Shown here: positions 27,336-63,964 of the stretch, piece after piece
How the letters are laid out: each line of letters starts with the position of its first letter
How positions within the stretch are numbered: the stretch's first letter is position 1
Source of the DNA: Nitrosopumilus cobalaminigenes
GTDB lineage: Archaea; Thermoproteota; Nitrososphaeria; Nitrososphaerales; Nitrosopumilaceae
DNA: 64,000 nt
Assembly (NCBI RefSeq): GCF_013407145.1
Contig: NZ_CP026993.1
Location: 558,001 to 622,000, forward strand
Direction of reading: 5' to 3'
Position numbers and translations under genes: made by a program
Notes under the pieces: model-generated
What the model was told of the DNA's origin: nothing
Seen by the model: only the letters and a program-made list of their open reading frames with translations
Databases searched by the model: none

Positions 27336-27431
27336 TCTAAACCCTCCAACCTATAATTGATGTTTTTTTAGATAGTTAAACTATATCATTTGATTGAACT
27401 TATTTACTTGATATATTATGACTATGTGGGC

Positions 27432-29294
27432 ATGGTGAAGTTACTAATTTCATTATTTGTTATTTTAACCATTCTTACAATTGGTCCTACAGCATTTGCC
27501 GATGAAATAGATGATAATTTTGATAATGGATTAGACTTACACGAACAAGCTTTTGATTCAAAAAATCAAGCCCTATATGATGATGCACTGTCTCAACATA
27601 AATCTGCAATTACTTTTTTTGATATGGTTTTAGATGAAGATCCGACAGACATTGATGCGTTAATATTCAAAGGAATTTCCCTACATGAAATCGCTGATAT
27701 CACTGACAATCCTAATTATTATGAAGATTCAATTCTTGTTTATGATATTCTTTTGAATCTAGAACCCAATTTGGCAGCAGCTTTAACCGGTAAAGGAAAT
27801 TCAATGATTTATGCAGGCTATATTTATGGTGATGATCATCCGTACATACAAGAAGGTTTAGCATTACAAAAACAAGCATTTCAAATTGATCCTGATGATT
27901 TTTATGTTTTAAATGAATACGCCAATAATTTGGCACAACTTGGAAAATATGGTGCAGCAATTGCTCTTTATGATAAAATGCTTGAACTTGATCCAAATGA
28001 TATTGATGCTCTTAACAACAAAGGAGTTGCACTGTTAGACCAAGGACATTATGAAGAAGCAATCCCTTATTTTGAAAAAGCATTAGAACAAGATCCTTTA
28101 GATTTTCTTCCATTACTAAATTTAGGATTGACGTTATCTTATCTTGAAAAATATTCTGAGGCAGTTCCAATTTTTAAGGATGTTCTTAAAAGAGATCCTG
28201 CAAACATTGATGCTTTAGTAAATGTTGGAATTGCATATTTGGCAAACGGAATGTATGATAAATCAATCACTTCCTTTGATAAAGTACTTGAAGACGAACC
28301 TGATAATTTTGATGCTTTAAAAAATAAAGCAACTGCACTTAGTTATGTTGGAGAATATGAGGATGCATTGGAAATTTTTAACGATATTTTATTAGAATCT
28401 CCAAACGATATTGAGTTATTAGAAAATAAAGCATGGACACATTATCAATTAAATCAATATGATGAATCTTTAACTATTCTTGAAAAGTTATTGAAAATTG
28501 ATCCTACAAATTCTAATGCATTACTTGCAAAAAGTACTGTATTGGCTGAAACTGGTAAAACAGAAGATGCAAAAACTGTTCTTTCTCAAGCCTCTGAAAA
28601 CTCTTCCATCAATGTATCTGAAAAAGAAATCATTGCTGTGAACAATTTGATTGAAACAGTAGAGAAAGGTGGGGACATCCAAGTTGCAAAATGTAAGGTA
28701 AACAATGATCTGAATCTTTTAGATTTTACACCTATTGGACAAATAATTAAAATTATTTCTCCCCCTCCAAAACAAATAGATTGTTCAAAAGCATATGCTG
28801 AATCAACACCGCAATCAACACCGCAATCAACACCGCAATCAACACCGCAATCAACACCGCAATCAACACCGCAATCAACACCGCAATCAACACAGCCACG
28901 TGGCAATGATGACGGCGGTTGTCTTATTGCAACTGCAACATATGGTACAGAACTAGCGCCTCAAGTACAATTACTAAGAGAAATCAGAGACAACACACTA
29001 TTCAGTACAACCTCTGGAACATCATTCATGTCCGGATTTAACACAATATACTATTCATTTGCACCAACTGTTGCAGATTGGGAAAGAGAAAGTCCGTTAT
29101 TCAAAGAAACAGTAAAGACGCTCATCACTCCAATGTTATCAACACTATCCATAATGTCATTAGCTGAAGATGGTTCAGAAGAACAAGTGTTAGGACTAGG
29201 GATTTCAGTCATTGCATTAAACTTGGGAATGTACATTGCAGCACCTGCAATGATTGGTTTGCAAGTTAGAAAAATCATTAAAAAATCCTTTTAG
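27432..29294 (+). CDS. secreted TPR protein with STPQ linker and CFI-box C-terminal domain
   Basis: About 620 residues. I chose the ATG at 27432, because the signal peptide (VKLLISLFVILTILTIGPTA, ending at FADE) starts there; the frame itself extends to 27390. Eleven or so TPRs follow (LDEDPTDIDALIFKGISLHE style). Seven perfect STPQ units come next, and then the CFI-box C-terminal domain ([21 protein letters not shown]) whose last hydrophobic helices probably anchor it in the membrane. Its final 378 bp look identical to those of the next gene. It is likely a surface-exposed scaffold or S-layer-associated protein. Confidence 0.9.
   Translation: MVKLLISLFVILTILTIGPTAFADEIDDNFDNGLDLHEQAFDSKNQALYDDALSQHKSAITFFDMVLDEDPTDIDALIFKGISLHEIADITDNPNYYEDSILVYDILLNLEPNLAAALTGKGNSMIYAGYIYGDDHPYIQEGLALQKQAFQIDPDDFYVLNEYANNLAQLGKYGAAIALYDKMLELDPNDIDALNNKGVALLDQGHYEEAIPYFEKALEQDPLDFLPLLNLGLTLSYLEKYSEAVPIFKDVLKRDPANIDALVNVGIAYLANGMYDKSITSFDKVLEDEPDNFDALKNKATALSYVGEYEDALEIFNDILLESPNDIELLENKAWTHYQLNQYDESLTILEKLLKIDPTNSNALLAKSTVLAETGKTEDAKTVLSQASENSSINVSEKEIIAVNNLIETVEKGGDIQVAKCKVNNDLNLLDFTPIGQIIKIISPPPKQIDCSKAYAESTPQSTPQSTPQSTPQSTPQSTPQSTPQSTQPRGNDDGGCLIATATYGTELAPQVQLLREIRDNTLFSTTSGTSFMSGFNTIYYSFAPTVADWERESPLFKETVKTLITPMLSTLSIMSLAEDGSEEQVLGLGISVIALNLGMYIAAPAMIGLQVRKIIKKSF
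28803..28886 (+). repeat. seven tandem copies of a 12-bp unit (STPQ)
   Basis: Seven head-to-tail copies of TCAACACCGCAA encode the STPQ linker between the TPR region and the CFI-box domain of the 27432 gene; an eighth copy is degenerate (TCAACACAGCCA). The perfect copies suggest length variation by slippage. Such Thr/Ser/Pro linkers outside the cell are possible glycosylation sites. Confidence 0.95.
28905..29282 (+). repeat. 378-bp duplicated CFI-box segment, copy 1
   Basis: By eye every base from here to 29282 matches 30013-30390 (offset 1108 bp). It covers the acidic lead-in and the whole CFI-box domain. The sequence differs at once on either side. The copies are direct repeats within two tandem genes. 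Confidence 0.95.
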
Positions 29295-29325
29295 ATCATT
29301 TAATTACTTTGTAAATTATTTCATT

Positions 29326-30405
29326 ATGGTTATGTTAAAGCTAACACTTTCATTGTTTTTGATATTTGTTTTAATTCTTGTAACTGTACCGAATTCATTT
29401 GCTGAACAAAGTGCTGAAGAATTATTTGAAATTGGTGTGGACTACTATTTTGAATTTTTTGATGACAGTGTTCAAGACTCAGGTTATAAAGCAATAGAAT
29501 ATTTTGATAAAGCTTTAGAGATTGACCCCGAACATCTTCAGGCACTTATTCATAAAGCAGAGATCCTTCATGGATTTGACGGTAATTTTGAAGAAACTAT
29601 GGCACTTTTCGATAAAGCTTTAGAGATTGATCCTACTGAACCTTACGCATTAGTCAATAAAGGTTCTGTACTTGCAAACAATGGTAATCTTGAAGAATCT
29701 ATGGCACTTTATGAAACTGCCTTAGAACATAATCCCGACTTCTTTCAAGCAAAGTTGAACATAGCGATTATACTTTATTCACAAGAAAAATATTCTGAGG
29801 CAATTCCACTTCTTCAAGAATATCTAGAAGAAACTGATGAGAATTTTGACATTGCAGAAATGCTATTAAAAAATGCTCAAGAAAATAGACCAGTCACTCA
29901 AGAAGAGTACAAAGAACTTGAGGAAAAATGGGATCCTACAAATTTAATTCCTATAACACTTTTAATAAAAGTAGTAGTGGCTTACGCAGAAACGGACAAT
30001 GAAGAAATTAGTAATGATGACGGCGGTTGTCTTATTGCAACTGCAACATATGGTACAGAACTAGCGCCTCAAGTACAATTACTAAGAGAAATCAGAGACA
30101 ACACACTATTCAGTACAACCTCTGGAACATCATTCATGTCCGGATTTAACACAATATACTATTCATTTGCACCAACTGTTGCAGATTGGGAAAGAGAAAG
30201 TCCGTTATTCAAAGAAACAGTAAAGACGCTCATCACTCCAATGTTATCAACACTATCCATAATGTCATTAGCTGAAGATGGTTCAGAAGAACAAGTGTTA
30301 GGACTAGGGATTTCAGTCATTGCATTAAACTTGGGAATGTACATTGCAGCACCTGCAATGATTGGTTTGCAAGTTAGAAAAATCATTAAATTTCAAAATT
30401 ACTAG
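29326..30405 (+). CDS. secreted TPR protein with CFI-box C-terminal domain
   Basis: About 359 residues from the ATG at 29326; the frame begins earlier at 29254. The signal peptide [20 protein letters not shown] ends near SFAEQS. Three to four TPRs follow ([60 protein letters not shown]). The CFI-box domain (residues about 230-359) is identical to that of the upstream gene. It lacks the STPQ linker. It lies 31 bp downstream of the first gene and is a likely tandem duplicate that kept only the tail in common. Confidence 0.9.
30013..30390 (+). repeat. 378-bp duplicated CFI-box segment, copy 2
   Basis: Direct repeat of 28905-29282, apparently identical base for base. Third positions are also identical although the rest of the two genes has diverged strongly. 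This points to recent gene conversion or very recent copying of this module. Confidence 0.95.
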
Positions 30406-46588: not shown

Positions 46589-47014
46589 ATGAGTGGTAAT
46601 CAAAACCTATACGACCCTTCTGAGATGTTTAAATCTTGGATTCAAAAAAGTGGACGTGCCCAAGCAGAATTTATGAAAAACTTTGGTTCCTTAATGGGGA
46701 ATCAAACTAGTCAAACATTCAATCCTTTAGAAACATTGAAAGGAGTTTCTGAAAATGCACGACAAACTCAATCTAATATGATGGATAACATGTCAACCAT
46801 GCAAAGTAAAAGTATGGATACTATGTTTAGCATCGGCCAAATGCTTCCTTCCTTTATGAATTGGGGTGCTTACAAAACTACTATCAGTAGTAATGGAAGA
46901 ATCTCTATCCCTGAAGCAGAACGAAATGCACTAGGTTTAGGAGATGGTGATTTAGTCCAAGTCATTATTCTACCAATAGCAAAAAAATCAAAAAATAAGG
47001 AGGTGAAACAATGA
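46589..47014 (+). CDS. phasin-like helical region fused to AbrB/SpoVT domain
   Basis: A 141-residue protein with two parts. Residues 1-95 are a Met/Gln/Asn-rich helix region (SEMFKSWIQKSGRAQAEFMK; ARQTQSNMMDNMSTMQSKSM) of the kind that binds PHA granules. The C-terminal part is an AbrB-like swapped-hairpin DNA-binding domain (YKTTISSNGRISIPEAERNA). It lies next to phaP-like and, convergently, to phaC and phaE. In haloarchaea an AbrB-type regulator also lies with phaP-phaE-phaC, so this fits a granule-linked autoregulator. Confidence 0.8.
   Translation: MSGNQNLYDPSEMFKSWIQKSGRAQAEFMKNFGSLMGNQTSQTFNPLETLKGVSENARQTQSNMMDNMSTMQSKSMDTMFSIGQMLPSFMNWGAYKTTISSNGRISIPEAERNALGLGDGDLVQVIILPIAKKSKNKEVKQ
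46999..47006 (+). promoter_or_regulatory. Shine-Dalgarno site of the phasin-like gene
   Basis: GGAGGTGA, complementary to the anti-SD of the 16S 3' end (CACCTCC), 4 nt before the ATG at 47011. It lies inside the last codons of the AbrB fusion gene, typical for internal genes of operons in this genome. Confidence 0.85.
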
Positions 47015-47439
47015 GTAAAAACGAAACAACACAAGTAAATTCTAAAGATGTATTTTCTGCATATCAAGAAAATGTTGACAAACTCTTCAATGGTATTAAA
47101 CAATCAGTACCACAATATCATCAATCAATTACAAATGTACAACAGGAATACCTCCAAGCATATGAAAACATGGTAGATTCAACTATCTCTCTACAAAAAG
47201 AATATGTAAAGAAAGCAGGTATCAAATCAGACATTCCTGAAGCAACACTAAAAGTAATTCATGATACGACTGAAGAATATGTAAAGGCAGCTTCAATACA
47301 AAACCAAATAGTACTTGCAACTATCGATGCAACACAACAAAATATCAAAACTTTCAACGATAATGCAAAATCATTTGCTGACCTAAACAGAAACATTCTA
47401 CAATCTTGGATTTCTGTATTCACTACAAAAACAAACTAG
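47011..47439 (+). CDS. phasin-like PHA granule protein
   Basis: A 142-residue all-helical, Gln/Asn-rich protein (YQENVDKLFNGIKQSVPQYH; VDSTISLQKEYVKKAGIKSD) resembling phasins. It overlaps the AbrB-fusion stop by 4 bp and has a strong SD. Phasins coat PHA granules and help PhaC/PhaE. The family call rests on composition and position more than on a firm signature. Confidence 0.75.
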   Translation: MSKNETTQVNSKDVFSAYQENVDKLFNGIKQSVPQYHQSITNVQQEYLQAYENMVDSTISLQKEYVKKAGIKSDIPEATLKVIHDTTEEYVKAASIQNQIVLATIDATQQNIKTFNDNAKSFADLNRNILQSWISVFTTKTN

Positions 47440-47470
47440 TGAAAAATTTATTTTTTTAATTTTTTCTTTT

Positions 47471-48535
47471 TTATGATCTTTCAGCTAACCATTTTCCTAG
47501 CTCTGGTAACACCTTTTTCTGAGATAGGGAACTAGCTATCATTCCTACATGCCCCGTTGGATACATTCTCAATGTTTTATCTTCGCTGCCAATTGCATAA
47601 TGTAGTGGCATACTACATTCCGGTGACACTAGGTGATCTCCTACGGCAATTTGGGTAAATGTTGGCATGTCTATTTTTTTCAAATCTATATGCTCTCCTC
47701 CAACATACATTTTATTTTGAATTAACAGGTTATCTTGATAGATATCTTTTATCCATTGTTTGAATAATTCTCCTGGTATTGGCGGTGTATCTCCCAACCA
47801 TTTCTCCACTCTGAGGAAATTATCTACAAATTTTTTGTTATCTATATTTTTGAAAAATTTCACATATTTTTCAATTCCTTGTTCAAATGGTTTCAAGACT
47901 GAGAAACAATAGTACATGAATTCTGGAGGCATATTCCCAATGGTGTCGACCATTTTCTCTACATCCATATGTTTGGCGAGATTGCTGATCACTGTAGTAT
48001 CACGCCATCCATCAATGACTGGTGCGGTTGCAATGTAGTTTTTTACACTTTCTGGATGTAATGCGGTATATGCTGTTGCAATGGTTGCTCCAGTACAATA
48101 TCCTTGCAATGAAATTTTTTCAGTTGATGATTCATTTTTGATATGTTCTACAGCAGAATCCAAATATCCATTTACATAATCATCGAAATCCAAATACTTG
48201 TCCATACTAGTTGGCGTTCCCCAATCTAACATGTACAAATCAAATCCTTGTTCGAGTAGATTTCTTACCCAACTTTTTTCAGGTTGGATGTCTAGTATAT
48301 GGTATCTGTTTATCAATGCATATGAAATTAACAATGGTGTTTTGTGTTGTTTTTCTGTAAGTGGTCTATAATGAAGTAATCTTGTTTTATCTAGCTCGTG
48401 AACTGTATCATGTGGTGTCACTTCTAAGCTAATCTCATCTGGTGCAGAAACTAATTTTGGAGCTTCAATTACATTCTTGCTGAATTTCAAAACCTCTTCA
48501 ATTATCTTTGGATCAATTTTAGATTCACTATGCAT
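47471..48535 (-). CDS. phaC: class III polyhydroxyalkanoate synthase PhaC
   Basis: Polymerises 3-hydroxyacyl-CoA to PHA. The 354-residue length is that of class III PhaC. The lipase-box-like ISLQGYCTGATIATAYTALH carries the catalytic Cys, with Asp in IAVGDHLVSPE and His in YPTGHVGMIAS. The N-terminal strand region VSAPDEISLEVTPHDTVHEL is shared with the family. Its start overlaps the end of phaE by 8 bp (PhaE first), so the synthase dimer is made from one mRNA. It is convergent with the phasin gene. Confidence 0.94.
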   Translation of the reverse strand: MHSESKIDPKIIEEVLKFSKNVIEAPKLVSAPDEISLEVTPHDTVHELDKTRLLHYRPLTEKQHKTPLLISYALINRYHILDIQPEKSWVRNLLEQGFDLYMLDWGTPTSMDKYLDFDDYVNGYLDSAVEHIKNESSTEKISLQGYCTGATIATAYTALHPESVKNYIATAPVIDGWRDTTVISNLAKHMDVEKMVDTIGNMPPEFMYYCFSVLKPFEQGIEKYVKFFKNIDNKKFVDNFLRVEKWLGDTPPIPGELFKQWIKDIYQDNLLIQNKMYVGGEHIDLKKIDMPTFTQIAVGDHLVSPECSMPLHYAIGSEDKTLRMYPTGHVGMIASSLSQKKVLPELGKWLAERS

Positions 48536-49103
48536 TTTTCTTTATTTCCTTTTTCTTTAACTCCAATTCTAATTTCCCAACCCGTTTTTTCAAAGAATGA
48601 AGTTCTTTGTATACTTCATCAATCTCTTCTTTACTGGGAAGGTTAACTGATTGCAAAACTACATTTGTAATGTTATTCCAATGCTTTGTTAGCTCTAATT
48701 CCTTTGAAACTAGTTTTCCATAATTTTCTCCAAAATCTTTGGAATCGAACAATTCTGTAAAATCATTATCGAAAATATCTATCCATATTCTTTTGAATGC
48801 TTCAATTTGTTCAACATCTTGAGGTACTTCGGGTGCTTTCAAATTGACTTTTTTTTGTGCGACTTCCCATGCGTTTGATAGTTGTTTATAATATTCTGTG
48901 AGGTATTGGTTGAAACCCATCAGATCTTCATTGATTTCTATTAATTCTGTAGTTACTTTTTTTGAATTTGCAGCAAATGCTCTCATTGGTCCTGTGGATG
49001 CTAATGCCTGAGGTTTACTGGACATTAAATGCATAATGTCTGTCCAAAATAATGACAAATGCTTGTAGTAATCCATTGTATTTTTTGAAGAATCTGACTG
49101 CAC
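48528..49103 (-). CDS. phaE: PHA synthase subunit PhaE
   Basis: A 191-residue helical partner of class III PhaC (SLFWTDIMHLMSSKPQALAS; FKRIWIDIFDNDFTELFDSK; a coiled-coil C-terminus LHSLKKRVGKLELELKKKEI). Initiation could be at 49103 or at the internal Met at 49076. It lies upstream of phaC with the 8-bp overlap typical of the pair. It is divergent from the DUF6659-type gene. Confidence 0.88.
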   Translation of the reverse strand: MQSDSSKNTMDYYKHLSLFWTDIMHLMSSKPQALASTGPMRAFAANSKKVTTELIEINEDLMGFNQYLTEYYKQLSNAWEVAQKKVNLKAPEVPQDVEQIEAFKRIWIDIFDNDFTELFDSKDFGENYGKLVSKELELTKHWNNITNVVLQSVNLPSKEEIDEVYKELHSLKKRVGKLELELKKKEIKKNA

Positions 49104-50004: not shown

Positions 50005-50916
50005 TTAATCTTTTAGCATTTGTCTTAGCCCTGCACATCTATTTCTAATCGTTACTTCTGTAACTCCTGATGCGATGGAAATGTCTTTTTGTGATTTGAC
50101 TTCCCCTGTACTAATACATGCAAGATACAATGCTGCTGCTGCAATTCCCATTGGATCTTTTCCTGCAACCATGCCGATGTCTTTGGCTTGATTTAAAATT
50201 GCAATTGCTTTTCTCTTACTTTTTTCACTGAGCTGTGCAATACTTGCAATTCTTGAAACTCCTTTAACTGGATCAACAACTGGCATTTTTAATTCCAATT
50301 CTCTGAAAATCAACCTATAACATCTGGCTACATCTTTTCTTCTAATGTTGATTCCTTTTGCGATATCATCTAAAGTTCTAGGTGTTTCTGTATTTCTACA
50401 TGATGCATAGAGGCATGCTGCTACTAATCCTTGAATGGAGCGACCTCTAACTAATTTCTTCTCCATCGCTTTTCTGTAAATGTAAGCTGCTTTCTCAATT
50501 ACTGCATCGGTTAGCGCAAGTTTGTCTTTTAATTTGTCCATTTCATTTAGAGCTTGTCTCAAGTTTCTATCTGCAGAAGAATGTGCTTGACTTCTACTGT
50601 CCCAAGTTCTTAATCTTTCAATTGAACTTTTGACACTTGCAGATAGTGGCTTTCCTGTTGCATCTTTATTTGCTGCACCAATGACTGTTGATAATCCCAT
50701 GTCGTGCATTGTGAGGGATGTACCTGCCCCTGTTCTGGCTTTGTTTCCTTCATCATTTGAAAATGACCGCCATTCAGCACCTGTATCTGCAATTTTATCT
50801 GTTACAACTAATCCACATTTACTACAGAATAATTCTCCTGTGTTCTGATCTGTGACCATTTTTTTATCACCGCATGATGGGCATTTTGGCCCCGACATCA
50901 TTGTATTTTTAAGCAT
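50005..50916 (-). CDS. tfb: transcription initiation factor TFB
   Basis: Archaeal TFIIB, needed to recruit RNA polymerase to the TATA/BRE complex. The zinc ribbon is canonical: CPSCGDKKMVTD with the second pair in ELFCSKCGLV. The B-reader/linker EWRSFSNDEGNKARTGAGTS is present. Two cyclin folds follow, the second containing KDISIASGVTEVTIRNRCAG, the BRE-contacting helix-turn-helix. The 303 residues are the standard length. It is the conventional copy of two in this window. Confidence 0.97.
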   Translation of the reverse strand: MLKNTMMSGPKCPSCGDKKMVTDQNTGELFCSKCGLVVTDKIADTGAEWRSFSNDEGNKARTGAGTSLTMHDMGLSTVIGAANKDATGKPLSASVKSSIERLRTWDSRSQAHSSADRNLRQALNEMDKLKDKLALTDAVIEKAAYIYRKAMEKKLVRGRSIQGLVAACLYASCRNTETPRTLDDIAKGINIRRKDVARCYRLIFRELELKMPVVDPVKGVSRIASIAQLSEKSKRKAIAILNQAKDIGMVAGKDPMGIAAAALYLACISTGEVKSQKDISIASGVTEVTIRNRCAGLRQMLKD

Positions 50917-56604: not shown

Positions 56605-56790
56605 TCACTCTCGTTTTTTACTTCTCGGCTTTGTTCTTAATACTGCCTTACAGCAAATACATCGTGTATCATCTACTTTCAAAAATATGCCGCAAAAAGT
56701 ACATCTTTTTTGTCCAATTTCGTACCTAATTTTGTTTGGAACTGGTTCTGCCTTGTGCATTTGACAAATGCCTCTACATGTTCTACCCAT
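56605..56790 (-). CDS. small double zinc-ribbon protein
   Basis: A 61-residue protein, two CxxC pairs (CTFCGIFLKVDDTRCICCKA) and an N-terminal CRGIC. I set the start at the ATG 56790 because GGGGGTGA, a good Shine-Dalgarno, lies 5 nt upstream. Its start overlaps the end of the second TFB gene by 8 bp, so it is translated from the same mRNA and is a candidate partner of that TFB. Confidence 0.8.
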   Translation of the reverse strand: MGRTCRGICQMHKAEPVPNKIRYEIGQKRCTFCGIFLKVDDTRCICCKAVLRTKPRSKKRE

Positions 56791-57694
56791 TGATTTCACC
56801 CCCTACTTTTTCTTTGATTTCTTTGGAGCGGTCTCTGATTGTTACTGCACTAATTCCTGATGCTTTAGAAATTTTCAATTGAGTGATTTTTTCATGATTT
56901 ATCACTGATGCTAAATTAATTGCAGCTGCTGCCATTGCCATTGGGTTTTTACTAGTTGAGACTTTTTTCTTTGATGCATGCCCTAGAATTTTAAATGCCA
57001 GTCTTTCTGTTTTCTCTGTTAGTCCAACTGCCTTTGAGACTCTTGTAACAAATTCATTTGGGTTATATGCATCTGGGTGCAAATCTAATTCATTTACTAG
57101 GAATCTGTAGATTCTTTGTAGGTTTTTCTTCTTAATGTTTCCTGCATTTGCAACGTCTTGTAATGTCCTTGGGGTATCTGTTAGTCTACATGTGATGTAA
57201 ACTGTAGCACAAAGCATTGCATTTGTTGATCTCCCTGCAAGTATTTTTTTAGCAGCTATTTTTCTAAACAAGTATGCTGTCTCTTCCACAACAGATTCAG
57301 GCAAACCTAATTTTGAGCTAATCCCATCTAACAATGTAAATGCTTTTTGAAATGATTTAACGGAAATTGCAGAACGACTGTTTCTATCCCACATTCTTAA
57401 ACGATAAAACATTCTTCGATTTTCATTTGATAGTGATTTACCTGTGGCGTCTTTATCTTGTGCTTGCATGATTGTTGATAGTCCTCTATCTGCCATCTTC
57501 AATGATGTCTTCATCCCTACTCTGGAATTACTTTGATATTCTTCTCCACTGAGTCCTGTTGTTTCTGAACTAATGTCGATTGACTTTTCATTTGAAACTG
57601 CTCCGCAGTTACTACATGCAATTTCTCCTGTATAACCATCTGTTATCATCAGATTTTTTTTACAGTCTTTTTGATGTACTAATTCTGCTATCAT
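56783..57694 (-). CDS. divergent transcription factor B paralogue
   Basis: A 303-residue TFB homologue. Two cyclin folds are preserved, the second with LKISKASGISAVTIRDRSKE, the BRE-binding HTH. The N-terminal zinc ribbon is odd: the first Cys of the first pair is replaced (HQKDCKKNLMITD in place of CxxC), while the second pair CSNCGAV is intact. The B-reader EWR-F motif of the other TFB is missing (TTGLSGEEYQSNSR). This suggests a specialised TFB with altered start-site selection. It is transcribed divergently from the 57845 operon, with one TTAGCACTAG box 19 bp before its likely TATA. Confidence 0.9.
   Translation of the reverse strand: MIAELVHQKDCKKNLMITDGYTGEIACSNCGAVSNEKSIDISSETTGLSGEEYQSNSRVGMKTSLKMADRGLSTIMQAQDKDATGKSLSNENRRMFYRLRMWDRNSRSAISVKSFQKAFTLLDGISSKLGLPESVVEETAYLFRKIAAKKILAGRSTNAMLCATVYITCRLTDTPRTLQDVANAGNIKKKNLQRIYRFLVNELDLHPDAYNPNEFVTRVSKAVGLTEKTERLAFKILGHASKKKVSTSKNPMAMAAAAINLASVINHEKITQLKISKASGISAVTIRDRSKEIKEKVGGEING
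56796..56803 (-). promoter_or_regulatory. Shine-Dalgarno site of the small zinc-ribbon gene
   Basis: GGGGGTGA on the minus strand, 5 nt before the ATG at 56790, inside the last codons of TFB. It decides the start of the zinc-ribbon protein. Confidence 0.75.
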
Positions 57695-57741: not shown

Positions 57742-57751
57742 CTAGTGCTAA
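57742..57751 (-). promoter_or_regulatory. TTAGCACTAG box of the divergent TFB gene
   Basis: TTAGCACTAG read on the minus strand, ending 19 bp before the AT-rich TATA-like TTAAATAATTTA (about 57722-57711) of the TFB promoter. It is the exact inverted copy of the box at 57785-57794. Confidence 0.75.
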
Positions 57752-57784: not shown

Positions 57785-57794
57785 TTAGCACTAG
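57785..57794 (+). promoter_or_regulatory. TTAGCACTAG box of the 57845 operon
   Basis: TTAGCACTAG, 18 bp upstream of the TATA-like TTTAAATATAAT (57813-57824), which lies about 25 bp before the leaderless ATG at 57845. Together with 57742-57751 it makes an inverted pair, 43 bp apart centre to centre. Confidence 0.8.
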
Positions 57795-57844
57795 TCAATT
57801 TTTCAATCTTTTTTTAAATATAATATTTGAATAATATCATTCAA

Positions 57845-58204
57845 ATGCCTCATATTGTAATCGATAAAAAAATCAATTTGTTTGATTTTGCAAGTAGTTT
57901 TGCTCCTATTTTTCAAAAATCCCCCCTAATCAAAATTTCAACAATTTATGTTGAAAAGAATGCCTTGACTGCTTTGTTACCTGTGGTTGTAATTGATGAA
58001 AATCATCAGGAGTTCTTTATACAAATTTCTACAACTTTGAAAAAATCTACTATTCGTTTGCTTCCTTTAACAGATCCGATAAAAACTGATACCGTAAAAT
58101 CCACCTTGGCTTTAGTTTATTATCAAATAAAAAAATGGGATAAAGACATAACTGTTACGAAAACAAATCTATCTGAATATTTGAAGGCAGTTGTTGAAAT
58201 ATGA
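57845..58204 (+). CDS. hypothetical protein, first gene of the boxed operon
   Basis: A 119-residue soluble protein with alternating strand/helix pattern (MPHIVIDKKINLFDFASSFA; STIYVEKNALTALLPVVVID; VKSTLALVYYQIKKWDKDIT). No family is recognised. The start is the ATG at 57845, at the expected distance from the TATA-like box, rather than the TTG at 57827. Its stop overlaps the SRPBCC gene by 4 bp. Confidence 0.72.
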   Translation: MPHIVIDKKINLFDFASSFAPIFQKSPLIKISTIYVEKNALTALLPVVVIDENHQEFFIQISTTLKKSTIRLLPLTDPIKTDTVKSTLALVYYQIKKWDKDITVTKTNLSEYLKAVVEI

Positions 58205-58656
58205 AATCATTTTATTTATGCAGACACAGTATGTTGGACCGGAATGATCTTTTTGAAATTAGTACTAATGTAGATAATTTTCATAATGTGATGCCAAATT
58301 ATTTTAAATCTATGGATGTAATTGAGGATAATACTTCTGAAAAAATTGTTTTAGAAAAAATATCTTTTCTAGGAAAAACTCTTGATGTGAAAACAAAGCA
58401 TATTGTTTTACCGCCAAATCTTCATGGGGTTTTTATCTTATCTGGCCCGCTGAGTGGTACTTCATTTATTGAAAATTATGAATCTGATGACATGGGCACA
58501 AAAATTATTATTCAAGTCAGTTTGCAAATTAATGGATTTTTAAAATTTGTTCCTTTAATTGAAAAACTTATTTCAAAAAAAATGAACAATGTTATGAATG
58601 AGTTTATCATTTCTGCAGAAAGTTTCTCTCAAAGACACTTATTTTATAAAAGTTAG
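58201..58656 (+). CDS. SRPBCC (START-like) protein
   Basis: A 151-residue protein of the SRPBCC/polyketide-cyclase fold. It opens with RNDLFEISTNVDNFHNVMPN, the usual first helix/strand pair, and continues with long antiparallel strands (EKIVLEKISFLGKTLDVKTK; GTKIIIQVSLQINGFLKFVP), ending in an amphipathic helix. It binds a hydrophobic ligand in a cavity. SRPBCC proteins also accompany FAD oxidoreductases in bacterial CarH/LitR-controlled clusters. It overlaps the upstream gene by 4 bp. Confidence 0.82.
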   Translation: MKSFYLCRHSMLDRNDLFEISTNVDNFHNVMPNYFKSMDVIEDNTSEKIVLEKISFLGKTLDVKTKHIVLPPNLHGVFILSGPLSGTSFIENYESDDMGTKIIIQVSLQINGFLKFVPLIEKLISKKMNNVMNEFIISAESFSQRHLFYKS

Positions 58657-58662
58657 CACTAT
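58653..58662 (+). promoter_or_regulatory. TTAGCACTAG-like box of the FAD oxidoreductase gene
   Basis: TTAGCACTAT, 19 bp upstream of TATAAATAA (58682-58690), which lies 28 bp before the leaderless ATG at 58711. A degenerate second half, TTGGCACCTG (58672-58681), follows 19 bp downstream and abuts the TATA. Confidence 0.8.
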
Positions 58663-58710
58663 TACGATATATTGGCACCTGTATAAATAATCCTTTTTAG
58701 AAAATTATTC

Positions 58711-60057
58711 ATGTCTGAGCCTGTTGTAATCGTTGGAGCTGGGGTTGGAGGATTAACTACTTCTGCATTACTGTCTCAAAATGGCTATAAAGTAATGATT
58801 CTTGAAAAATCTGCACAGTTGGGTGGGAGAACTGCATCTATGGTATTCAGAAACCATGTTTTGGATAATGGGTTCCATATTATGCCTTTTTATAAAAAAT
58901 CTGCAATTTTTGAAATTTTAAAAAAATTAAAAATTGATTCAAAATTGAAACTTGCAAAAGTTGATGACATTGCATTTTATTCTGATGATGGATTTCATGT
59001 GTATCCTAAAGGAATGTTAGATTTATTGAAGCTTTCATTATTGCCTCTAAAAAGTAGACTCAAACTTTTAAAGATTCTTCTTCCTTTGGCGTTTACCTCA
59101 ATTTCTAAGAGTGAATCTTGGGATGATACTCCATTAACAAAAATCACAAAAAATTTAGATTCTGATACAAATGCTTTTTTTGAGGCAATTTGCATGTTAG
59201 CTTTTGCAGATACTGCAGATCACATTTCTTTAGGTGAATTTACTAGAACTATTATTCGAGCTAATCCTTTCAAAGGGGGAACTAGTGAATTTGCATATCC
59301 TGATAATGGTGGTTATGATTCAATTTGTAATGTCTTATCTGATTATATTTTAGAAAATAATGGGGAAATTCATACAAAACAATCTGTCAATAAAGTAATT
59401 GTTGAAAATTCAAAAGTGAAGGGTGTGTTTATAACAAATCCAAATGGTGAAGACACGTTTATCTCTACAAAATGTGTTGTTATTTCATATCCCGCATATT
59501 CTGCATTAAATCAACTTTTTGATAAAAACATCATCTCTTCAGATTTTATTAAAAAAATTAATCAATTGAATAAAACTACTTCTGTGGTAGAAGTTCATTT
59601 TGCATTAAAATCTAAAATTGATTCACGTCAAGTTGTTTTTCCTGTGGGCAAGCATTATACTACTAAAGGGATTTTTTTTATTTCAAATATTACCCCCTCT
59701 GTATCTCCAAAAGGGGAACATTTGATTATTGCAGGAACTCCTGTATTGCCTGAAGATACTGAAAATCCACTAAAAATTAAAGAAATTGTTACACGAATGA
59801 AACAAGAAATTTCTTCAATTTATTCTCAGTTTGAACCTTCATTAATTTGGGAACGTCCGATGGCATGGAAATTGGTAGAATCTGTAGTTAAAGAGCCTGG
59901 AAAAGTGTGGAAATCAAAAATGCCTCATCACATTCCTGGGATTGATGGTTTGTTCTTTGTAGGAGATTCTACAATTAGTTATGGGATAGGCACTGATTCA
60001 GCTGCCCACAGTTCAATCCTATGTTATCCTAAAATTGAATCTTTTTTGAAAAATTGA
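58711..60057 (+). CDS. phytoene desaturase-like FAD oxidoreductase
   Basis: A 448-residue FAD enzyme of the CrtI/amine-oxidase superfamily. It opens with VVIVGAGVGGLTTSALLSQN and EKSAQLGGRTASM. The C-terminal FAD contact is GLFFVGDSTISYGIGTDSAA, and the middle has IIRANPFKGGTSEFAYPDNG. No membrane segment is seen. The substrate is probably a hydrophobic polyene or isoprenoid. The location beside a CarH-like regulator and an SRPBCC protein suggests a light-protective pigment or lipid step. That is inference. Confidence 0.9.
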   Translation: MSEPVVIVGAGVGGLTTSALLSQNGYKVMILEKSAQLGGRTASMVFRNHVLDNGFHIMPFYKKSAIFEILKKLKIDSKLKLAKVDDIAFYSDDGFHVYPKGMLDLLKLSLLPLKSRLKLLKILLPLAFTSISKSESWDDTPLTKITKNLDSDTNAFFEAICMLAFADTADHISLGEFTRTIIRANPFKGGTSEFAYPDNGGYDSICNVLSDYILENNGEIHTKQSVNKVIVENSKVKGVFITNPNGEDTFISTKCVVISYPAYSALNQLFDKNIISSDFIKKINQLNKTTSVVEVHFALKSKIDSRQVVFPVGKHYTTKGIFFISNITPSVSPKGEHLIIAGTPVLPEDTENPLKIKEIVTRMKQEISSIYSQFEPSLIWERPMAWKLVESVVKEPGKVWKSKMPHHIPGIDGLFFVGDSTISYGIGTDSAAHSSILCYPKIESFLKN

Positions 60058-60900
60058 TTATGCAGTTCTAATGATCTTTGGTAGTTCTTCTAAATTTGGG
60101 TCCGATACTATCTTAGCATCAAATTTTGGAATTTTTTCTGATTGCATTGCATAACCTCCAACTAAAATTGGAATGTTGCATTCATCTCTAATTTTTCTTA
60201 CTAATCTTTGTCCTGCAGAAATATTATCTGGCAATGTAATTGAAACAAACACAATATCTGGATTATTATTTTCAATAAAATTCATTATTGATTCAGTTGG
60301 AAGTGATGTTCCCATATTGTATACTTTAAATCCTTTAATTGAAAGATATGTCTCTAACACATCACATCCTAAATGATGTTCTTCTCCTAGTGGTACGCAT
60401 ATCAAAATCTTTTTCTTATTTCCAGTACCTGATACTCTGTCCATAATTATTCTGACTAATGTTTGAGCGATATTGCTTGCAACATGTTCTGTTGCAATGC
60501 TGATTTTATTATTTGCCCAATGTTCTCCTATATCGTACATGACCGGTTTTAGGATTTTATCAAAGAAATCTGCAGCATTAAAAATTTTAACATATTCTTT
60601 GTATATTTTTACACACTCTTCAATATTACCTTCAGTTAATTTTTTGTATAATTGCTGTTTGGATTTTTTTGAAGCTTCTTCTCTTTTTTTAATATCTTTA
60701 GGATTAAAAGAAGCAAGAACTGACAACACTTTTGGATCACTTCTATATTCTATTGGAATATCGTCTTTTACAACATCAGACGCTTTGCCCAGATATTTTA
60801 CAATTTCTTGCTTTGATGTGCTCTTTTTTGAATCCCAGACACTTTTGACTAGGTATAGATATTGATCAGATTTTACTTTTTTAGCTCTAATGTACACCAT
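60058..60900 (-). CDS. B12-binding regulator of CarH/LitR type (candidate photoreceptor)
   Basis: A 280-residue protein. The N-terminal about 45 residues (VYIRAKKVKSDQYLYLVKSV) recall a small beta domain found at the start of some transposases and are not MerR-like. A helical bundle (about 85-160) contains GEHWANNKISIATEHVASNI, an exact W-x9-EH motif, which in CarH caps the adenosyl group. The B12-binding domain follows with CVPLGEEHHLGCDVLETYLS (ExHxxG, lower axial His), VSITLPDN and PILVGGYAM. The likely output is DNA binding controlled by adenosylcobalamin and light. Its own promoter carries two boxes. Confidence 0.85.
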   Translation of the reverse strand: MVYIRAKKVKSDQYLYLVKSVWDSKKSTSKQEIVKYLGKASDVVKDDIPIEYRSDPKVLSVLASFNPKDIKKREEASKKSKQQLYKKLTEGNIEECVKIYKEYVKIFNAADFFDKILKPVMYDIGEHWANNKISIATEHVASNIAQTLVRIIMDRVSGTGNKKKILICVPLGEEHHLGCDVLETYLSIKGFKVYNMGTSLPTESIMNFIENNNPDIVFVSITLPDNISAGQRLVRKIRDECNIPILVGGYAMQSEKIPKFDAKIVSDPNLEELPKIIRTA

Positions 60901-60930
60901 GTGATTATTTTTCCAAAATGAGTATATAAC

Positions 60931-60939
60931 TAATGCTAA
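60931..60939 (-). promoter_or_regulatory. second box of the B12 regulator promoter
   Basis: GTTAGCATTAG on the minus strand (60940 to 60930), one mismatch in the core from the consensus, next to the TATA-like TATATA (60929-60924) of the regulator gene. It lies 19 bp from the other box, as a direct repeat. Confidence 0.6.
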
Positions 60940-60948
60940 CTATGATTT

Positions 60949-60958
60949 ATAGTGCTAA
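60949..60958 (-). promoter_or_regulatory. TTAGCACTAG-like box of the B12 regulator promoter
   Basis: TTAGCACTAT on the minus strand, 18 bp before the TATA-like GTTATATACT (60930-60921), which lies about 25 bp before the leaderless start at 60900. This predicts autoregulation. Confidence 0.78.
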
Positions 60959-61120: not shown

Positions 61121-62056
61121 CTATGAATACTCATTCCCAATGAGGGCAAATGCGTGTTTTGAAACTCTCAAATTGCCAAACTTTTCAGGCTGAATTATCT
61201 TTGCTAAGATTTCAACTCCTTCAACTGTTCTGATGCTTGGTTTACTAAAAAATGAGTTTGCGTCTACAGCAAAAACTTTGTTGTTTTTTACCGCGTTTAA
61301 TGAATTCCAAGATTCATTATTTTTGAGAATTTCAAAATATTCTTTGATTGTTCTTTTTGTATCAAAACCACATGGCATCAAAATAATGATATCTGGATTT
61401 GATTCTATTATTTCCTTGATTTCTAATCGTCTTGAATGTTCACCTGTTTTACTAATCATGTTTTTACCTCCTGCAATTTCAACCATTTCTGGAACCCAAT
61501 GACCTGCAGTAAAGAATGGTTCAATCCATTCTATTGCCAGCACTTTTGGTTTATCATTTGTATTATTTTGTCTGATGCGTGAGATTCTTTTTTCTAGTGA
61601 TTCTGTGATGTTTTTTGCTTTTTGATTGCATTCTAGAATTTCCCCTATTTTCATTACTGATTCTATGATCTCTTTCATGTTGTGGGGATCCATTGAATGA
61701 ATAATTGGTTTTGTTTCCAAAATTTTTACTGCTTTATTGACTTGGTTGGTATATGCAGCACAAACTTCACACGTTTCTTGTGAAATTATCAAATCTGGAT
61801 TGGCTTTTTTCAAATTTTCTTCGTCTAAAATAAAAACATCTTTACCTTCACTTAGTAATTTACAAGTTGTAGTGTCAATTTCTTTACTAGTTAATTTTTC
61901 AGAATCAACAACCGTGTTGATAACTTTGGGTTTTAAACATGCATCTTGTGGATATTTACATTCATGTGTTACTCCAAACAGTTTATCTTGTAACTCTAAT
62001 TCATATATCAATTCAGTGGCGCTAGGCAAAAATGAAACAATTCTATTTACTGTCAT
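61121..62056 (-). CDS. BtuF-like corrinoid-binding protein without signal peptide
   Basis: A 311-residue periplasmic-binding-protein fold of the BtuF family. It opens with RIVSFLPSATELIYELELQD and FGVTHECKYP, which line the corrinoid site in BtuF, and continues with PDLIISQETCEVCAAYTNQV. There is no N-terminal hydrophobic stretch or lipobox, so the protein seems cytoplasmic. In these archaea such proteins may bind cobalamin or its precursors inside the cell. The position beside the B12-binding regulator fits a cobalamin-linked locus. Confidence 0.85.
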   Translation of the reverse strand: MTVNRIVSFLPSATELIYELELQDKLFGVTHECKYPQDACLKPKVINTVVDSEKLTSKEIDTTTCKLLSEGKDVFILDEENLKKANPDLIISQETCEVCAAYTNQVNKAVKILETKPIIHSMDPHNMKEIIESVMKIGEILECNQKAKNITESLEKRISRIRQNNTNDKPKVLAIEWIEPFFTAGHWVPEMVEIAGGKNMISKTGEHSRRLEIKEIIESNPDIIILMPCGFDTKRTIKEYFEILKNNESWNSLNAVKNNKVFAVDANSFFSKPSIRTVEGVEILAKIIQPEKFGNLRVSKHAFALIGNEYS

Positions 62057-62154: not shown

Positions 62155-63312
62155 ATGTCTTCTGATTCTCAAACCATTCGAAAAGCAATTTTGTCAAAGT
62201 GGCATGAGTCTCTTTCCAAACATGGTAATTTGTTTTCATCAGATTCTATTAGTGGTTCTAGTCCTCCATCAGTTTTTGTTGGCTCTTATGATTATCCCAA
62301 AGTCTTTGTTGGTCCTATGGTTCCCCCAATACATGGAGATACTAGTCTTCTTGATAGTCCTGAAAAATGGAAAGGAAAATCTTTAGAAGATATTGTAAAC
62401 TTTAGACTAAATTTAGTTAGAGGCATTCAAAAAATCCCTATTGATCAAACTGGAGGCCGATATATTGAAAACCTTCAAGAAGTTGCAATGTCATCAAAAC
62501 CCATTGACTCTGATTTAATTTTTCAAAAATCAACTGGTCCAAACATTGCACTAGATGGTGAAAGTGCACCTTTTGGTCCTATTGGAGAAATCAAATCTGC
62601 AAAATTCACTGGAACTACCTCTGTAAAGTCTATCGAAAAAACATACTATGATAAAGATTTGAAAGCACAAGATGCTGTTTTGAATTTATATAATTCTGGA
62701 ATTGAAATTTCAAAAATTCAAAAATGTTTCAGTATTGGAATGTTGGGACAAAAAAGAAAATTGGTTCCTACTAAATGGAGTATAATTGCAACTGATGATA
62801 TAATTTGCAAATCCCTTATTGATGATATACTTGATTATAGTTTAATTGATTCCCACAAAGTTTTTTCATATGAACATTTAGGAAATATTTTCACTATTGT
62901 ACTATTTCCACACAGGTGGGTTTATGAAATGATTGAAGCTTGGTATTCTAACGGTGTATTGGGATTTGGGTCTGATTATGAGGATGCTCGTGGAATTGAT
63001 CATCCTCCAGCAATTGCTGGTGCCTATTTTGCAGCAAAATTGGGTGTTTTAGAATATTTGAAAAAGAATAAGATTCAAGCAGGAGTTGTTATTTTCCGAG
63101 AAATTCGTCCAGAATATGCTATACCTGTTGGTGTCTGGCAAGTTAGAGAGGGGATTCGTGAGGCAATGAATCAAAACTGTCTAGTTGCTGATAATTTTGA
63201 ACATGCTTTATCTTTAGCATCAAATAAAATGAGTATCAGTAAATCTGAATGGCTCTCTCATGGAAATATTGTTGAATTGATAAGACAGAAAACTATCTCT
63301 GATTTTTTTTAA
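62155..63312 (+). CDS. nreA: NreA-type archaeal DNA repair protein with PIP box
   Basis: A 385-residue Nre-family protein involved in DNA-damage resistance with PCNA. FVGSYDYPKVFVGPMVPPIH is the family opening motif. The region LGQKRKLVPTKWSIIATDDI is the second conserved block. The C-terminus QKTISDFF is a PIP box (Q-x2-h-x2-F-F) that binds PCNA. The ATG at 62155 is preceded by an AT-rich promoter (TTCTTATACGGCAAG). Confidence 0.93.
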   Translation: MSSDSQTIRKAILSKWHESLSKHGNLFSSDSISGSSPPSVFVGSYDYPKVFVGPMVPPIHGDTSLLDSPEKWKGKSLEDIVNFRLNLVRGIQKIPIDQTGGRYIENLQEVAMSSKPIDSDLIFQKSTGPNIALDGESAPFGPIGEIKSAKFTGTTSVKSIEKTYYDKDLKAQDAVLNLYNSGIEISKIQKCFSIGMLGQKRKLVPTKWSIIATDDIICKSLIDDILDYSLIDSHKVFSYEHLGNIFTIVLFPHRWVYEMIEAWYSNGVLGFGSDYEDARGIDHPPAIAGAYFAAKLGVLEYLKKNKIQAGVVIFREIRPEYAIPVGVWQVREGIREAMNQNCLVADNFEHALSLASNKMSISKSEWLSHGNIVELIRQKTISDFF

Positions 63313-63851
63313 TATAACTTCTTTGATAACAGTTTAAACAAATTTCCTGGATGTGGGTTTGAATACAATAGAAAATAAGTTTGGCTTGCAAGATATGTGT
63401 CATTAAATCGATAAATTATTGGTTCAATCTCTGCCAAAATTTCGCCCACCGAAATTCTCTTGTTTTTAAATTTATCAAGTAAATCAAAAAATTTTTCTTT
63501 TTCTTGTTGATTGAAATTATTTGAGAAATGTCCAAAAATATGCAATATGACATTACTATGTTTTTTTATTGTGGGTTCACTTTCTAAAGATTTTTTCAGA
63601 TGCATCTCGTATTCTGTGAGAATTTTATTGAAATCTACTTTTTTATTACTTGCAACTAAGTTGCCCAATATTTTTAATTCCTCCTGATTATGTGCCATGA
63701 TCATGTATTTGTTGATGGCCTGAAACGAAACTAAATTATTTATTTTCTTATTTTTTTTAACATCTTCAAATCGTTCAATCACATAATCTATGACATCTTT
63801 TTCAGTAATTGTTTGAGTTTCTATGCTGAATATATCTTGTTTCTCACTCAC
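63309..63851 (-). CDS. hypothetical helical protein
   Basis: A 180-residue predicted helical protein (EKDVIDYVIERFEDVKKNKK; KILTEYEMHLKKSLESEPTI; KFFDLLDKFKNKRISVGEIL). The reading frame overlaps the NreA stop by 4 bp, convergent. A TATA-like GCTTATATGTAAAT precedes the start. No family is recognised. Confidence 0.7.
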   Translation of the reverse strand: MSEKQDIFSIETQTITEKDVIDYVIERFEDVKKNKKINNLVSFQAINKYMIMAHNQEELKILGNLVASNKKVDFNKILTEYEMHLKKSLESEPTIKKHSNVILHIFGHFSNNFNQQEKEKFFDLLDKFKNKRISVGEILAEIEPIIYRFNDTYLASQTYFLLYSNPHPGNLFKLLSKKLY

Positions 63852-63936: not shown

Positions 63937-63946
63937 TTACCACTAG
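63937..63946 (+). promoter_or_regulatory. TTACCACTAG box of the right-edge gene
   Basis: TTACCACTAG, 19 bp upstream of TTAAATATAAT (63966-63976), the TATA-like box of a gene that would start at the ATG 63995 as a leaderless message. Spacing is the same as at the four other promoters. Confidence 0.65.
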
Positions 63947-63954
63947 TCTATCAT

Positions 63955-63964
63955 TTAGCACCAG
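63955..63964 (+). promoter_or_regulatory. TTAGCACCAG box next to the right-edge TATA
   Basis: TTAGCACCAG, one mismatch from the consensus, directly next to the TATA-like box; 18 bp from the 63937 copy, as a direct repeat. The same two-box arrangement is seen at the B12 regulator promoter. Confidence 0.6.

Follow-up and report, generated by a model that had tools for sequence, protein, structure and literature searches.

A candidate B12 photoreceptor-type regulator with a non-MerR N-terminus and a conserved direct-repeat operator in ammonia-oxidising archaea

Ammonia-oxidising archaea are major nitrifiers in both soil and ocean, and their habitats are shaped by light inhibition. The locus described here raises the question of whether these organisms carry a light sensor based on vitamin B12 and, if so, which genes it would control. 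We analysed a window of 64,000 nucleotides (bases 558001-622000 of a single-contig 1.56-Mb genome), in which a minus-strand open reading frame with an ATG start encodes a protein of 280 aa; the closest named relatives are Nitrosopumilus assemblies. A first-pass annotation had read this protein as a CarH/LitR-like adenosylcobalamin (AdoCbl) photoreceptor whose N-terminus is not of the MerR type. Our in silico analysis supports that reading through residue conservation, structure matches, the nature of the N-terminus and the presence of a cobalamin adenosyltransferase in the host genome. The protein is probably an AdoCbl photoreceptor that regulates transcription of a light/UV protection regulon, as a dark repressor acting via a direct repeat. 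The gene and its parts are as follows.

60058-60900, minus strand: gene for a CarH-like B12 photoreceptor-type regulator, 280 aa (ORF, Pfam, NCBIfam, alignment)
60754-60900, minus strand: N-terminal domain, residues 1-49, predicted three-stranded beta sheet, putatively DNA-binding (alignment, structure prediction; no MerR)
60445-60657, minus strand: four-helix B12-binding_2 domain, residues 82-152 (Pfam, 3.1e-12)
60484-60519, minus strand: W128-x9-E138-H139 motif (sequence, alignment)
60148-60408, minus strand: B12-binding Rossmann domain, residues 165-251 (Pfam, 2.7e-12)
60367-60384, minus strand: lower-ligand motif E173-E-H175-H-L-G178 (sequence, alignment)

Both marks on which the photoreceptor reading was first based are found in the protein: W-x9-EH is exact, as W128-x9-E138-H139, and ExHxxG is present in the B12 domain as E173-x-H175-x2-G178. 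The latter opens a full B12 motif, ExHxxG...SxT...GG (E173, H175, G178, S220, T222, G248, G249), and its spacing (E173 to G178, 41 residues, S220-I-T222, 25 residues, G248-G249) fits the published form D/ExHx2G/P-x41-SxT/V-x22-27-GG (PMC9304148). By itself, ExHxxG denotes B12 binding in general, not light sensing. The light-responsive cobalamin-binding domain of SignatureFinder is described by GxxW, EH, GxxH and GxxxP (PMC11796333), and all four marks are present in the window protein (G125/W128, E138/H139, G172/H175 and G197/P201). Among 69 aligned homologs, GxxW, EH, GxxH and P201 occur together in 64, and G197 of GxxxP is also present in 28. The adenosylated form of the cofactor, assumed in the first-pass annotation, is consistent with the cobalamin adenosyltransferase encoded in the host genome (PF01923, 1.3e-57).

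Members of the family occur widely among ammonia-oxidising archaea: of 200 genomes searched in the order, 144 gave some match, and the gene was called present in 78 of the 200 (best E-value below 1e-20, fragments included). Across the 69 aligned homologs, which span 31-100% identity, W128, E138 and H139 are each kept in 65 and H175 in all 69; W and EH are retained in 41/44 sequences after thinning to 80% identity, and GxxWx9EH is found in 80/80 named loci (the best 80 of 149). A chance origin of the W/EH motif is excluded because it is conserved across homologs. The search for W-x9-EH in other Thaumarchaeota, suggested earlier together with the idea that orthologues without these residues would speak against light sensing, thus found them in 65/69, the 4/69 that lack them being a paralogue-like group (L051, L052, L068 and L071). 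This group retains the B12 motif, and in L051 B12-binding is the sole domain by Pfam. These four paralogues also have a common promoter sequence of their own, ACTCAT..AGGTGCGTAA, inverted-repeat-like and placed before TTAAATA.

We searched a profile of 25 family members against PDB sequences. The best matches were the photocobilins 8j2x and 8j2w (1e-21), followed by CtMerR 8jbs (5e-20), and these ranked ahead of corrinoid proteins and methionine synthase; the CarH entries came at about 5e-14, near a trimethylamine corrinoid protein (1.4e-14) and AerR (3.3e-14). The structure prediction proposed earlier for the helical bundle was carried out for the whole protein (mean pLDDT 87), and the 50 Foldseek matches listed against the PDB were all photocobilin, TtCarH or CtMerR, that is, B12 photoreceptors.

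The N-terminus is indeed not MerR. Pfam identified no MerR or other DNA-binding domain in the 280-aa protein, nor did NCBIfam in its N-terminus, and the N-terminal stretch searched alone had no Pfam match; instead, a three-stranded beta sheet is predicted with confidence (domain predicted alone, strands 2-9, 12-23 and 28-39, helix 56-65; mean pLDDT 90). Nine of its residues are invariant in the 69 homologs (K7, Y14, V18, W22, Q31, Y36, L37, G38 and P49). A PDB sequence search with this domain returned no match up to E 10, the best Foldseek match reached E 0.7, and the best VIA-align hit (Z 4.0 over 59 residues at 3.2 A, a small ribosomal protein chain) was not above background; this lack of a match among solved structures does not prove a new fold. 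When a profile of 29 members of the domain was searched in 398 genomes of the phylum, 55 had matches. Weak matches outside the family, among those inspected, include protein L207, which carries a DDE transposase domain (PF01609), and transposase-like and uncharacterised fragments; this gives a computed basis to the likeness to transposases that had been suggested for the N-terminus. Moreover, Fic-like proteins of a related genus (L201-L204; L201 scanned, PF02661) start with the same kind of domain. The B12 module is absent from both these and the DDE transposases, and we know of no role of either as a promoter regulator. We suggest that the domain would bind DNA.

The DNA to which it would bind is suggested by the gene's own promoter, which had been reported to hold two copies of a repeated element, TTAGCACTAG.

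60930-60958, minus strand: own-promoter operator TTAGCACTAT-N9-TTAGCATTAG, 19-bp period (motif scan, pair statistics)
60922-60929, minus strand: TATA-like TTATATAC abutting the second operator copy (sequence, family architecture)

Two copies are there, TTAGCACTAT at 60949-60958 and TTAGCATTAG at 60930-60939, both on the minus strand; each is one mismatch from TTAGCACTAG, and none is perfect. In the window, TTAGCACTAG at no more than one mismatch has 15 matches versus 2.3 expected. The upstream regions of 151 homolog loci, reduced to 109 non-redundant ones, hold paired copies at exactly 19 bp in 63 cases, versus 0-1 at every other period from 10 to 39 bp, and the best pair score is at least 15 in 87/109 of them versus 2/2180 shuffles. 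By the same score, Nitrosopelagicus and some of the distant members show at most one clear copy, and the W/EH-less paralogues have no TTAGCACTAG element upstream. We then counted operator sites by pattern searches of genomes. In 30 genomes of the genus the pair pattern gave 59 sites versus 1 for the reversed control, of which 20 lie in the promoter of the B12 gene itself and 39 at other places; in the 27 genomes common to both searches, 20/20 of those with the gene have the pair, versus 0/7 of those lacking it. A pair pattern allowing two mismatches was rejected (18 sites versus 16 in the reversed control), and only sites with 0-1 mismatch near the island were used. Finally, 172 loci, whose counts are not independent since the loci overlap and are related, gave 341 pair sites, 298 of them unique, and a TATA-like box lies 0-1 bp after the second copy in 246/298 unique pairs versus 8/298 with the downstream 40 bases shuffled. 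We infer that the direct repeat is the conserved operator of a photoprotection regulon and is bound by the B12 protein.

The mechanism that we propose is the following. The four-helix bundle and the Rossmann fold would together hold AdoCbl, with W128, E138 and H139 on its upper face and H175 as the lower ligand. In the dark, AdoCbl would keep the protein oligomeric, and its N-terminal beta-sheet domains would grip the two TTAGCACTAG direct repeats 19 bp apart; the inner repeat lies directly against the TATA box and over the BRE, so that TFB and TBP would be blocked. Green-to-UV light would break the Co-C bond and change the oligomer, freeing the promoter and inducing the genes. Predicted targets are the gene itself, a variant TFB, an SDR, FAD oxidoreductases, a pyrimidine-dimer glycosylase and, in genomes that have one, photolyase, and the variant TFB could relay the signal in the manner of an alternative sigma factor.

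Archaeal activators can also sit beside the BRE, which would suit an AdoCbl light sensor that activates its targets, or one that is switched by a redox signal. The chemistry of the light state gives this alternative a second argument: TtCarH carries H132, the basis of its bis-His light state, and a histidine at the equivalent position after the Trp was found in 0/69 homologs, so the light state must differ from that of CarH. In TtCarH, H132 is needed for tetramer disassembly, and the H132A protein mostly stays tetrameric in light (PMC10442372); the disassembly and light-state chemistry of CarH therefore cannot be copied exactly. CtMerR, SasPcob and AbDPcob also lack this histidine, yet they are light-responsive (PMC11796333), and its absence therefore removes only the bis-His route. 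We expect the family protein to respond to light, with a structural consequence that should differ from that in TtCarH. As for the sign of the response, the operator overlies the BRE at most sites, the arrangement expected of a repressor, and in bacteria CarH and LitR act as dark repressors (PMC10442372, PMC11417400). Repression is likelier than activation because of this placement and this precedent, and we consider an activator or a redox switch unlikely.

The genes around the B12 gene and downstream of the element give the content of the predicted regulon.

58653-58681, plus strand: operator pair (1 mismatch) upstream of the FAD oxidoreductase gene (pattern search)
58711-60057, plus strand: FAD-dependent amine oxidase / CrtI-type oxidoreductase, predicted regulon member (Pfam, neighbourhood)
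57785-57794, plus strand: perfect TTAGCACTAG, distal copy only, upstream of the gene at 57827 (motif scan)
57827-58204, plus strand: 125-aa uncharacterised protein, predicted regulon member (ORF, neighbourhood)
58201-58656, plus strand: SRPBCC-like protein, weak Polyketide_cyc match (0.08), probably in the operon of 57827 (Pfam, neighbourhood)
57742-57751, minus strand: perfect TTAGCACTAG, distal copy only, upstream of the TFB gene (motif scan)
56783-57694, minus strand: variant transcription factor B, predicted regulon member (Pfam, genome comparison)
63309-63851, minus strand: DUF1722 (YbgA/RudS C-terminal family) gene of the island; adjoining operator copies face away (Pfam, neighbourhood)
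63937-63964, plus strand: two element copies at 18-bp period, ahead of the TATA box of a gene that starts outside the window and encodes a secreted protein (motif scan)

In the 172 loci, the genes after pair sites are the B12 gene (123), the SDR (55), the FAD oxidoreductase (38), the secreted protein (27) and an uncharacterised protein whose relatives adjoin photolyase (21), with smaller groups of PNPOx-like, cupredoxin, TFB (2) and pyrimidine-dimer glycosylase (1) genes. In the host genome, pairs are found before the B12 gene and, with 1 mismatch, before the FAD oxidoreductase; a further one, about 8 kb outward, precedes the secreted protein, which is followed by the SDR. At L003:15073, a one-mismatch copy precedes a probable operon of PNPOx and Pyr_excise. 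Small zinc-ribbon-like ORFs are interleaved with these two genes at L003:15131-15800, in what is probably a UV operon. In Nitrosopelagicus (L139-L151), operator pairs stand before a cupredoxin-like gene in eight loci, possibly a light-controlled copper protein. The neighbourhoods of 154 loci, of unequal lengths and including some duplicates, contain the SDR in 109, the FAD oxidoreductase in 69, DUF1722 in 57, TFB in 56 and photolyase in 20. DUF1722 was not counted as a target because its adjoining elements point to another gene. A point against the proposed reading is that upstream of TFB and of 57827 the distal copy stands alone. Elsewhere in the window lie two adjacent TPR-type ORFs (27390-30405) with a long near-identical C-terminal stretch, as from a recent duplication, and polyhydroxyalkanoate synthase type genes (46589-49103, with PHA_synth_III_E at 48528-49103).

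Photolyase (PF03441) occurs in 28/200 genomes, and the B12 gene is present in 26 of these 28 versus 52 of the 172 others (Fisher 2e-10, kinship uncorrected). Among 80 listed genomes of the family, it is present in 20/21 genomes with photolyase versus 27/59 others (6e-5, kinship uncorrected). The two genes lie at most 10.5 kb apart in 14 of the 26 genomes that have both; the photolyase genomes without the gene are G182 and G168, and PF03441 found no photolyase in the host genome of the window. Taken with the gene content, this suggests that the protein probably switches on UV-repair and protection genes through the repeated element. The same evidence bears on the possibility of a cobalamin-status sensor, whose DNA binding would depend on the presence of AdoCbl and not on light. 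Every repressor that binds AdoCbl is also a reporter of AdoCbl, and a periplasmic-binding-protein gene with a BtuF-model match (61121-62056) adjoins the B12 gene. The regulon, however, is one of UV/light protection and not of cobalamin synthesis or uptake, photolyase co-occurs with the gene, and W and EH, which contact the adenosyl group in CarH, are the residues kept in nearly all homologs (65/69). We therefore regard a status sensor as decidedly unlikely.

The window holds two TFB-like genes, the variant listed above and another at 50005-50916. With a minimum identity of 55%, the variant TFB occurs in 19/23 element-bearing genomes of the genus and in 0/7 others. This distribution, a close ortholog being absent from all seven element-less genomes, and the inner copy sitting at the BRE position would fit a repeat that serves as a promoter element for the variant TFB or for some other factor, with the B12 protein acting by protein contact or being merely a neighbour. 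Several observations weigh against it: the element-bearing genomes G200, G095, G107 and G157 have no match above 44% identity to the variant TFB at the threshold used, whereas the B12 gene tracks the element without exception (20/20 and 0/7); a BRE leaves the second copy, 19 bp further out, unexplained; and the promoters of the W/EH-less paralogues differ in sequence. We thus give little credence to a repeat read by TFB, and retain the B12 protein as the probable ligand of the operator. It is scarcely credible that the protein is simply of the corrinoid methyltransferase type and carries a stray domain at its N-terminus, a reading for which weak NCBIfam corrinoid matches might speak (pyl_corrinoid, 45.4 bits, 5.8e-12), given that the CarH model scores better (66.5 bits, 2.2e-18, though under its cut-off), photoreceptors head the PDB profile and Foldseek rankings, no closer fit to proteins of the MtaC/MtbC/MetH type appeared in the NCBIfam, PDB profile and Foldseek comparisons, the family has its own operator, and the other B12 protein found in the host genome lacks Wx9EH.

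We found no report of a B12 light sensor in ammonia-oxidising or other archaea in the open-licence literature, which is not proof of absence; the available text of PMC6593220, PMC7554672, PMC6908642, PMC8156234 and PMC9402790 holds nothing on an archaeal B12 photoreceptor. SignatureFinder gives HTH, DGC, bilin, GAF and MEDS as partner domains of the light-responsive module, and words beginning with archae, Nitroso or Thaumarch are absent from the main text (PMC11796333). It is somewhat more probable than otherwise that the archaea have a B12 photoreceptor of their own, combining a CarH-type module, a beta-sheet DNA-binding domain that had gone unrecognised and that transposases share, a direct-repeat operator of 19-bp period next to the TATA box and a UV/light regulon that includes a sigma-like light-induced TFB. 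If true, this would widen B12 photoreception to include Archaea, where it would be coupled to a new DNA-binding domain, would mean a light-controlled gene switch in some of the most abundant microbes of the ocean, and could provide a compact optogenetic part. With a receptor candidate, the sequence of an operator and a set of predicted targets, the question of light sensing becomes testable.

The B12 module resembles that of TtCarH (21% identity over 184 aa, with W, EH and the lower-ligand His aligned), and differs from it in lacking the His after the Trp. In this it is like its best profile and structure matches, the photocobilins (8j2w, 8j2x) and CtMerR (8jbs). These carry a bilin domain and a MerR domain, respectively (PMC11796333), whereas the archaeal protein has neither, its output domain being the N-terminal beta sheet; CarH and LitR likewise have a MerR winged-helix N-terminus that it lacks. 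The four paralogues have a parallel in CarA of Myxococcus, which keeps the B12 motif (PMC9304148) as they keep ExHxxG, although CarA loses the Trp and retains EH while the archaeal paralogues lose W, E and H. The gene neighbourhood can also be compared. Within 20 kb on Thermus thermophilus pTT27 are an FAD oxidoreductase, an SDR, LdrP, carH, phr, crtI and a DUF523-DUF1722 gene, and thus the Thermus CarH island and the archaeal one hold the same kinds of genes (phr, SDR, FAD oxidoreductase, DUF1722). The archaeal SDR is 36% identical over 309 aa to its pTT27 homolog. The similarity of the archaeal FAD oxidoreductase to two Thermus oxidoreductases is mainly in the FAD-binding stretch; we therefore claim homology with the Thermus island only for the B12 module and the SDR. 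Plasmid records gave no match to the FAD oxidoreductase, no light genes were found near the SDR in Allomeiothermus, and two actinobacterial records are unannotated in that region. A search of viral contigs yielded no relative. In Pseudomonas, genes for photolyase, an FAD oxidoreductase and a short-chain dehydrogenase lie in the LitR region (PMC9758184), while RudS (TudS-DUF1722) genes frequently belong to light-responsive operons (PMC11417400). CarH also shares a direct-repeat operator in its targets, including its own promoter; there it consists of tandem 11-bp repeats (PMC9304148), and here of 10-bp repeats at a different period, 19 bp, on promoters that, unlike those of CarH, sit on an archaeal TATA/BRE. 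Without a MerR domain or H132 the archaeal protein is not a CarH, yet it should work like one.
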